A stretch of 64,000 bases of DNA. Source: Flavobacteriales bacterium. GTDB lineage: Bacteria; Bacteroidota; Bacteroidia; Flavobacteriales; Flavobacteriaceae. Made by a program: the position numbers and the translations under genes. Shown here piece by piece: positions 20,326-22,266 of this stretch. Below the pieces are notes generated by a model. The model made no database searches and was not told the DNA's origin. It saw only the letters and a list, made by a program, of their open reading frames with translations. The stretch spans positions 186,001 to 250,000 of the forward strand of contig JAMOUV010000010.1 in NCBI GenBank assembly GCA_027067965.1, written 5' to 3'. Each line of letters starts with the position of its first letter. Position 1 is the stretch's first letter.

Positions 20326-21090
20326 ATGATAAACGGATACTTAAACAAGATTTTGGTTATTATATTTTTGGCAAGTTTATTGCAGGGATGTGGTGTATTT
20401 AAAAAACGGCCCGTGAAAAACGAATCTACCGGAGTTTTTGAAAACTTTTTGGATAATTTGCCTTCTTCATCGTTCCGGGCGAATTATTTAAACCAAAAAT
20501 GGGCTGTGGATTATCGTTCACCTCAATATTCCGTTTCCTTTCAGGTTCGAATGTCATTAATAAAAGACAGTGTGATCTATTTTTCGGTTTCCAAATTCGG
20601 ATTTCCCGTAGCCAAGGCATTGATCACGCCCGAAGAAGCCGCTTATTACGAAAGCATTGGAAAAACATATTACCGGGGCGAATTAAAGGATATTAGCAAA
20701 ATGATTGGTATGGATTTGAATTTCAACCAATTACAAGCATTAATCACCGGTGATTCGCCCGTGGACATAACACGGGACTGGAAATTTGAACTTACCGGAA
20801 ACGAATCACGGCCTTTCAAACTGATTCCGCCTGCCTATTCGGTAGTAAAACAATTGTATTTTACGCCTTTTTTCAAAGTTTATTCCGGAAAATTCGAGCA
20901 TGACAAGCAACAGGCAAGCATTCTTTATGAAAAATACACTTCGGGTCCCGAAAAACTTCCCGAAAGTATCCGTATAGATTCACCGCAAATAAATGTGGAT
21001 ATAAAAGTTAAGAAGTCGGATACGCAAAAAAAGCCCGAAATCAGGTTTCAAATCCCGAAAAATTATCGTCGAATCGAATTAAAAAAATAA
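20326..21090 (+). CDS. DUF4292 lipoprotein
   Basis: The 254-aa protein has a lipoprotein signal (LASLLQGC, Cys22). The body matches the DUF4292 pattern (FRANYLNQKW, then VSFQVRMSLIKDSVIYFSV), a LolB/LolA-like beta half-barrel common in Bacteroidota. A role in lipoprotein or lipid handling is plausible by fold but unproven. In relatives it usually precedes an M23 murein-hydrolase activator; here that gene is absent and the ThrRS editing-domain gene follows. Confidence 0.8.
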   Translation: MINGYLNKILVIIFLASLLQGCGVFKKRPVKNESTGVFENFLDNLPSSSFRANYLNQKWAVDYRSPQYSVSFQVRMSLIKDSVIYFSVSKFGFPVAKALITPEEAAYYESIGKTYYRGELKDISKMIGMDLNFNQLQALITGDSPVDITRDWKFELTGNESRPFKLIPPAYSVVKQLYFTPFFKVYSGKFEHDKQQASILYEKYTSGPEKLPESIRIDSPQINVDIKVKKSDTQKKPEIRFQIPKNYRRIELKK

Positions 21091-21138: not shown

Positions 21139-21146
21139 TATATTTG
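21139..21146 (+). promoter_or_regulatory. -7 promoter element (TATATTTG) before the editing-domain gene
   Basis: Exact TAnnTTTG box 16 bp upstream of the ATG at 21163. It suggests the editing-domain/ftsE pair has its own promoter. Confidence 0.5.
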
Positions 21147-21162
21147 TGAAAAACACGGAAGG

Positions 21163-21573
21163 ATGAAAGTATTGATGATATATGCCCGTGAGTTTTCTTA
21201 TGAGCCGCGCATAAAGACTTTAACGGATTTTCCCGATATAACGGAAGGAAAAACATTCCGTGACGTGCAAGTGGTTTGTATTCAAGTGGAGGCCGAAGAC
21301 GAAGAAAAACTCAAGAGCAAAGAAACCAAACTGGTCAAACTTATCAAATGGGCGGCAAAGAAAAACGATACCCGTAAAATTTTACTGCACTCTTTCGCGC
21401 ATTTATCCGAAAGCAAAGCCCCGCCGGAAATATCAAAATTTATTTTCGATAAAACCGAAGAACGCTTAAAAAATTCCGGCTACGAAGTGGAACAAACCCC
21501 TTACGGTTATTTTTTGGATTTGAAATTGGACGCGCCGGGAAAAAGCAGCGCCAGAATATTTAAAAATCTTTAA
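21163..21573 (+). CDS. Stand-alone archaeal-type threonyl-tRNA synthetase editing domain protein
   Basis: The 136-aa protein resembles the N-terminal editing domain of archaeal ThrRS (tRNA-Thr_ED, a D-aminoacyl-tRNA deacylase fold) over its whole length. Matches are the opening MKVLMIYAREFSYE, the core LLHSFAHLSESKAPP (archaeal FAHLS), and PYGYFLDLKLDAPGK near the end (archaeal PFGYYKAFK). In archaea the domain removes Ser from tRNA-Thr. The residue aligned to the archaeal GYYK lysine is Leu here (GYFL), so editing may be altered or lost. It is followed 3 bp later by ftsE, implying translational coupling. Family assignment is from remembered sequences, not a search. Confidence 0.75.
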   Translation: MKVLMIYAREFSYEPRIKTLTDFPDITEGKTFRDVQVVCIQVEAEDEEKLKSKETKLVKLIKWAAKKNDTRKILLHSFAHLSESKAPPEISKFIFDKTEERLKNSGYEVEQTPYGYFLDLKLDAPGKSSARIFKNL

Positions 21574-21576
21574 ATC

Positions 21577-22266
21577 ATGATGATTAATCGTCCCATAGTA
21601 AAATTGGTTAATGCTACCATTCAACAACGCGGTTTTCCCGTATTAAAAAATGTAAATCTCGAAGTACAAAAAGGCGAAATGGTGTATTTAATCGGAAAAA
21701 CCGGTTCGGGAAAAACCAGTTTGCTTAAAACGCTTTACGGTGAAATTCCATTAATGGATGGCGAAGCGTTTGTCGTTGATTTTCAACTACATCATTTAAA
21801 ACGCAAACAAATTCCAGAATTGAGAAAACAATTGGGAATTATTTTTCAGGACTTCCGCTTGTTGTTGGACAGAAGTGTGTATGATAACTTGGATTTCGTA
21901 TTGCGTGCAACGGGTTGGGACGATAAAATCAAACGAAAAAAACGAATCGAAGAAGTTTTGGAAAAAACCGGCACACTTCCCTTGATTTACAAGCCCGCCC
22001 ATGCTTTATCGGGCGGTGAACAACAGAAAGTGGCTATTGCAAGAGCACTGTTGAACAATCCGAAATTAATCCTGGCCGACGAGCCCACCGGAAATTTGGA
22101 CCCGGACACACGCATGGAAATTATGGATTTATTTATGGAAATTAACCGGTGGAATAATACGATTTTAATGGCCACGCACGACTATTCGGCCATATTGAAA
22201 TACCCGGGCATCACGTACATGTGTCAGGACGGCAAACTCTTTGAAGTGGAGCCCGAAACCAAATAA
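21577..22266 (+). CDS. ftsE: FtsE-like ABC ATPase
   Basis: The 229-aa ATPase has Walker A GKTGSGKTS, a Q-loop in IIFQDFRLL, the signature LSGGEQQKVAIARAL, Walker B LILADEPTGNLD and the ATHDY switch. The FQDFRLL motif and overall length are characteristic of FtsE, which with FtsX regulates cell-wall hydrolases at division. No ftsX neighbour is present, so FtsX would have to be elsewhere. It starts directly after the editing-domain gene. Confidence 0.85.
   Translation: MMINRPIVKLVNATIQQRGFPVLKNVNLEVQKGEMVYLIGKTGSGKTSLLKTLYGEIPLMDGEAFVVDFQLHHLKRKQIPELRKQLGIIFQDFRLLLDRSVYDNLDFVLRATGWDDKIKRKKRIEEVLEKTGTLPLIYKPAHALSGGEQQKVAIARALLNNPKLILADEPTGNLDPDTRMEIMDLFMEINRWNNTILMATHDYSAILKYPGITYMCQDGKLFEVEPETK

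Follow-up and report, generated by a model that had tools for sequence, protein, structure and literature searches.

What does an archaeal-type editing domain of threonyl-tRNA synthetase (ThrRS) do as a free-standing protein in a bacterium, with leucine at the place of a lysine on which the archaeal enzymes depend? The question is raised by one short gene in the window, that is, the whole stretch of 64,000 nucleotides of Flavobacteriales DNA that was analysed:

21163..21573, + strand: stand-alone tRNA-Thr_ED protein (ED) of 136 amino acids, with an ATG start, a PF08915 match and an AlphaFold2 model

The Pfam profile PF08915 (tRNA-Thr_ED) covers this protein practically from end to end (profile positions 1-136 of 137), and a score of 122.2 bits against a cut-off of 30.2 (E 2.1e-35) excludes a chance match. 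The same profile matches 82/82 sequences of our alignment A2, in which the protein itself is included. The best sequence matches are the solved archaeal ThrRS editing domains (E 3.4e-13), to which identity is 21-28%. NCBIfam models of ThrRS and of Ser-tRNA(Thr) hydrolases are matched over their first part only and far under their cut-offs, because they are longer than the 136-residue protein; NF011500 gives it 37.2 bits against a cut-off of 362, a shortfall of little weight for a model of 387 positions that is wider than the editing domain. The profiles of bacterial DTD, PF02580 and TIGR00256, are absent among its Pfam and NCBIfam matches at E<=1. The AlphaFold2 monomer, predicted from 82 sequences, has a mean pLDDT of 94.9 (an earlier model from 8 sequences, with a pLDDT of 58, was set aside). 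In Foldseek the 23 highest-ranking hits all belong to archaeal ThrRS editing domains (TM 0.87-0.93 by query length); DTDs come next and, among the matches listed, reach 0.61-0.73 on the same scale. VIA-align 2 gives Z 20.0-22.3 against the archaeal domains (rmsd 1.3-2.0 over 132-136 residues) and Z 11.3-14.9 against DTD and its kin (119-125 residues). The predicted fold is thus DTD-like and closest to the archaeal ThrRS editing domains, with DTD second. The initial annotation had described a stand-alone protein that resembles the archaeal domain over its whole length and carries FAHLS and PYGYF motifs; profile and model both bear this out, and the motifs lie at residues 78-82 and 113-117 of the open reading frame.

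Published descriptions of this family cover archaea and a small number of bacterial SepRS fusions (PMC8762117; PMC5424206), and our search of the open-access PMC literature found no study of a stand-alone bacterial tRNA-Thr_ED with the pocket described below. With the archaeal ThrRS domains of Pyrococcus abyssi, M. jannaschii and A. pernix, the protein shares its whole length, the fold, His83, Phe81 and the GY segment (P. abyssi numbering), but it stands alone, without an anticodon-binding domain. The archaeal ThrRS-ED or ThrRS-2, and stand-alone tRNA-Thr-ED proteins encoded beside SepCysS genes, are reported to lack the synthetase catalytic domain likewise (PMC4491819; PMC5424206; PMC8762117); unlike the protein studied here, however, the archaeal trans-editing ThrRS-ED is reported to carry an anticodon-binding domain. 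In the SepRS fusions of bacteria the editing domain reportedly retains the complete serine-recognition motif (PMC8762117), in contrast to this subfamily. Bacterial DTD resembles the protein in its fold (Z about 14), in being small and stand-alone, and in having a residue that is mostly hydrophobic at the site of Lys121, but it is recognised by other profiles and is encoded separately in the same genome. The N2 editing domain of bacterial ThrRS, of which this genome has one, is a different domain that may share the substrate Ser-tRNA(Thr).

The difference from the archaeal enzymes is concentrated in the amino-acid pocket. Seven side chains are reported within 6 Å of the scissile bond; in P. abyssi numbering they are Pro80, Phe81, Ala82, His83, Tyr120 and Lys121, together with Glu134 from the partner monomer (PMC4491819). 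For the alignment we used a Pyrococcus chain that carries the K121M mutation, and the identity of the wild-type residue, Lys121, was taken from the same report. The corresponding codons are:

21400..21402, + strand: codon of His80 (equivalent to His83 of the P. abyssi N-terminal domain); His in 104/104 sequences
21511..21516, + strand: codons of Phe117-Leu118 (equivalent to Tyr120-Lys121 by sequence alignment)
21553..21555, + strand: codon of Arg131 (equivalent to the cross-subunit Glu134); Arg in 104/104 sequences

The comparison rests on 104 distinct full-length bacterial sequences, obtained from 113 rows that reduced to 105 distinct ones, from which a single truncated row was dropped. Eighty loci were the best 80 of 200 by likeness to the group of this protein, and lean towards that group because they were chosen by similarity; the peptide patterns used exclude the pocket positions. 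A further 32 loci, partly the same genes, were added through the Pfam profile (the HMM found 32/32). Throughout this set, which includes the best 80 of 200, position 80 is Ser (104) instead of the archaeal Pro, position 81 is Phe (104), position 82 is Ala (96), Thr (6) or Gly (2), and position 83 is His (104/104). The GY segment is kept, with Gly118 in 104/104 and Tyr119 in 101/104 sequences, and is followed by Phe in place of the archaeal Tyr120 (104/104). At position 121 the residues are Leu (92), Met (8), His (2), Asn (1) and Ile (1), and Lys is found in 0/104. The leucine first noticed at the archaeal lysine site (Leu118, aligned with Lys121) is therefore no peculiarity of one protein. In all, four of the seven near-scissile side chains have given way to a new set that is invariant or almost so, namely Ser, Phe, mostly Leu or Met, and Arg. 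Judged by the aligned residues, this is a bacterial branch without the needed lysine and without the amine-holding glutamate, with an invariant Arg at the cross-subunit place. Among the features of a Ser-tRNA(Thr) hydrolase visible in sequence, His83 and the GY segment are present while Lys121 and Glu134 are missing. Within the genus, dN/dS could be calculated for 5 of the 21 pairs and was 0.05-0.18; the other 16 failed or were saturated.

For the archaeal domain, direct catalysis by side chains is reported to be ruled out in favour of the tRNA, while Lys121 places the catalytic water, and DTD has Met at that position (PMC4491819). The rebuilt pocket is a real puzzle because Lys-to-Met mutants were severely compromised in all three archaeal domains tested (PMC4491819). 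Tyr120 and Glu134 are reported as dispensable in the P. abyssi and A. pernix domains, and Glu135Ala inactivates that of M. jannaschii, where the Glu is needed (PMC4491819). Given the effects of the Lys-to-Met and Glu135Ala mutations, the protein could have lost its activity on Ser-tRNA(Thr), or all activity.

The gene is patchily distributed. It was found in 7/9 genomes of its own genus (this one included), in 0/16 from other genera of the family and in 1/15 from other families of the order; an even draw across the phylum added one carrier among 394 other genomes. The draw around an ED-bearing Bacteroidales genome gave carriers in 32/198 of its order, that around a Zixibacteria genome in 17/132 of its phylum and that around an Atribacteria genome in 4/50 of its phylum (the central genome counted each time). 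A scan of GTDB genomes returned 200 encoding stretches, and the best 80 kept are all titled bacterial and are all metagenome-assembled genomes; the titles of these best 80 name Bacteroidales, Flavobacteriales, Saprospiraceae, Chlorobiota, Zixibacteria, Melioribacteraceae, KSB1, Cloacimonadota and Atribacteria. Across several phyla the protein is conserved as a stand-alone form of 134-145 amino acids. No tblastn match to it was found in the plasmid and phage collections. The tree (82 rows, 136 columns), whose only archaeal outgroup sits at the end of a very long branch, leaves 34 of 79 forks open and is compatible both with a transfer from archaea and with old inheritance. The genome studied here measures 2.0 Mb and those of its genus mates 1.6-2.3 Mb; the other genera listed for the family have mostly about 3-5 Mb.

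Carriers of the gene mostly possess the usual proofreading enzymes as well. The genome encodes one ThrRS above the cut-off (E 4.9e-218), carrying HSSAH and CRGGH, the bacterial N2 editing motifs, and separately a DTD (E 6.1e-57). ED is therefore unlikely to be the sole editor of Ser-tRNA(Thr), or the only DTD-type enzyme of the cell; since N2-type ThrRS and DTD are both present, it would be an additional layer that replaces neither. TIGR00418 was matched in 27/30 genomes at E<=1e-60 (24 above the cut-off and 3 partial; 3/30 without a match), and the partial matches begin at positions 371, 394 and 407, run to 564 and lie each at a contig start. Among the 25 ThrRS sequences read, the CxxxH motif is present in 25/25 and HxxxH in 24/25, the missing one being lost at a contig end. 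These 25 comprise that of this genome, 23 from other ED-bearing genomes and one from a genome without ED (G008). The editing cysteine of the E. coli enzyme is reported to be C182 (PMC4041444). Compensation for a ThrRS without editing was rejected in view of the N2 motifs in the ThrRS read from ED genomes. Replacement of DTD was rejected as well, as DTD is encoded in 47/53 ED genomes searched (53 of 83 ED genomes, this one included), the six without a match being of unknown completeness.

A second line of evidence concerns the discriminator base of the tRNA. In this genome tRNA-Thr has U73 in 3/3 copies read, and among the 33 distinct tRNA genes read (39 tRNA matches) U73 occurs only in tRNA-Thr, -Gly and -Cys. 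Bacterial tRNA-Thr is reported with A73 in 131288 and U73 in 28854 of 160271 cases (PMC6097841). A reliance, or possible reliance, of the archaeal domain on U73 is described (PMC8762117; PMC11295145); on that account ED could read this tRNA-Thr. As a marker of ED genomes, U73 of tRNA-Thr was rejected, since it is found in 16/16 ED-positive and 14/14 ED-negative genomes, in a survey that obtained the locus from 30 of 38 genomes searched and read none from Zixibacteria or Atribacteria. The discriminator base of E. coli tRNA-Thr is A73. U73 is thus no firm requirement, because E. coli Ser-tRNA(Thr) is an in vitro substrate of three archaeal domains (PMC4491819). E. coli DTD is reported to act nearly 100-fold less on Gly-tRNA(Gly) with U73 than with a purine at position 73 (PMC6097841), and for this reason a U73-reading partner of DTD stays a live rival.

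The surroundings of the gene were compared over the 82 loci. Its two neighbours in the window are:

20326..21090, + strand: LolB1-type outer-membrane lipoprotein (DUF4292), upstream neighbour (NF053559, 116.8 bits, cut-off 50)
21577..22266, + strand: ftsE-like ABC ATPase (best NCBIfam match TIGR02673 FtsE, E 4.1e-63, 212.9 bits, under the cut-off of 264.85)

Three bases separate the ED stop from the ftsE ATG at 21577, and ftsE lies directly 3' of ED in 7/7 loci of the genus. The distance between the two genes runs from -1 to 3 bases, with a TGATG overlap in two loci, which suggests translational coupling within the genus. The tight linkage to ftsE pointed out in the initial annotation therefore stands for the genus but fails as a general rule: in the other 75 of the 82 loci ftsE was found within four genes of ED in none (0/75), short flanks of <1500 bases on one side affecting 25 of the 81 loci checked. 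The idea of an ftsE-linked division gene is accordingly not supported, the adjacency having been seen in 7/82 loci, all of one genus. Same-strand neighbours within 100 bases are present upstream in 29/74 and downstream in 31/81 loci, and most loci have none on a given side. Directly upstream of ED lies arfB, a translation-rescue gene, in 8/82 loci and an HD-domain gene in 7, and dtd follows directly downstream on the same strand, 2-3 bases past the ED stop, in 2/82 (L077:5001-5873 and L101:5001-5872). Of 57 neighbours lying close by on the same strand, 51 were searched with Pfam, which returned RF-1-domain proteins (6), SIR2 (4), thioredoxin-like (4), HD (4) and Tyr_Deacylase (2). The presence of arfB and dtd next to ED is a weak hint at translation quality control. 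The two dtd loci, in related Bacteroidales bins, place two DTD-fold proofreading proteins side by side; they may represent one event, because they are sister rows in the tree. In seven Bacteroidetes/Bacteroidales loci (L055, L057, L061, L062, L084, L086, L094) arfB lies 41-156 bp upstream of ED, with rarA beyond it on the opposite strand; both names were assigned from the sequences, and the RF-1 domain was confirmed by Pfam in 6 proteins. A SIR2-type gene is next downstream on the same strand in six loci (L073, L074, L075, L088, L091, L093).

With a probability of about 0.55, we regard the protein as a free-standing, trans-acting aminoacyl-tRNA deacylase of the DTD/ThrRS-editing fold, from a bacterial tRNA-Thr_ED subfamily with a rebuilt amino-acid pocket. 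Action in trans on mischarged tRNA, raised as a possibility in the initial annotation, is plausible. As in the archaeal domain, the 2'-OH of A76 of the tRNA would drive hydrolysis on a protein scaffold, of which the GY segment and His83 persist here. With the water-placing Lys121 lost, positive charge in the pocket may come from the invariant Arg at position 134, a place that in the archaeal dimer is filled by a residue of the other subunit. That this arginine does the work of the lost lysine is a guess based on residue identity. The enzyme would prefer U73 tRNAs, which among the tRNAs read in this genome are tRNA-Thr, -Gly and -Cys. It would add a layer of proofreading to N2-ThrRS and DTD, and its acyl substrate need not be L-serine. 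We hold only tentatively a narrower version of this proposal, a widespread bacterial family of free-standing proofreaders in which an Arg of the partner subunit replaces the lysine and the target has shifted from L-Ser-tRNA(Thr) to a different misacylated tRNA with U73 (Thr, Cys or Gly), to which bacterial DTD has poor access.

Other readings have to be set against the trans-acting deacylase with an altered pocket. A plain back-up Ser-tRNA(Thr) hydrolase, doing the job of the archaeal domain in trans, would agree with the common family and fold, the retained His83, the U73 of tRNA-Thr in this genome and the dispensability of Tyr120 and Glu134 in P. abyssi and A. pernix (PMC4491819). However, Lys121 is missing and Glu134 is Arg in 104/104 sequences, the Lys-to-Met change cripples the archaeal enzymes (PMC4491819), and N2 motifs are found in the ThrRS of this genome and of 23 other ED-bearing genomes (one of which lost its first motif at a contig end), which makes this reading rather unlikely. 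A complement to DTD, clearing D-amino acids or odd acyl groups from the U73 tRNAs that bacterial DTD handles poorly (PMC6097841), appears similarly doubtful. The Leu or Met prevailing at position 121 recalls the Met of DTD (PMC4491819), an Arg in place of the amine-holding Glu suggests that the substrate amine may not be held in the archaeal way, and DTD co-occurs with ED in most genomes searched and follows it closely in two loci; yet those two are related loci among 82, the 136-residue protein lacks the SQFTL and NxGP stretches of DTD, and an hhalign probability of 2.6 gives no sequence link to DTD beyond the fold.

That the protein simply is a DTD is highly improbable: the common fold (Z 11.3-14.9) speaks for it, but the unmatched PF02580 and TIGR00256 profiles already contradict it, a separate DTD is encoded in the genome and the archaeal ThrRS domains fit far better. 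A catalytically dead protein that binds tRNA or nucleotides and has a regulatory role, for example near envelope or division genes, would fit the absence of a residue on which three archaeal enzymes depend (PMC4491819) and the nearly overlapping ftsE within the genus. Against this stand the almost invariant pocket, which includes His83 and Gly118 and gives no sign of drift, and the 75/82 loci in which no adjacent ftsE was found, so that we judge it less probable than either proofreading alternative. Few editing enzymes work, as the archaeal domain does, with hardly any help from side chains other than a water-placing lysine, and a conserved bacterial branch with never a Lys and always an Arg for the archaeal Glu amounts to a natural experiment on that mechanism. 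If active, the protein would show that bacteria equipped with N2-ThrRS and, in most cases, DTD have yet another level of proofreading; without activity, it would be a conserved pseudo-enzyme of the ThrRS-editing/DTD fold. Were the narrower version with the partner-subunit arginine correct, Bacteroidota and several uncultured phyla would possess an unrecognised extra layer of translation quality control.

Two members of the genus are without ED. In one of them (G004, locus L209) the gene before ftsE is RloB-like (PF13707, E 3.6e-28) and a glycosyltransferase gene follows ftsE. An ATPase-like open reading frame precedes and overlaps the RloB-like gene, at the site that ED occupies in other members, and the two are presumably an RloA/RloB-type pair. 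In the other (G008) no close copy of this ftsE was found, the best having 37% identity. In the window, a sigma-70-type scan of the plus strand between 20200 and 22400 gave no promoter-like site. The -7 promoter element of Bacteroidota is TAnnTTTG, and a stretch resembling it, TATATTTG, lies at 21139-21146, 16 bases before the ED start codon.
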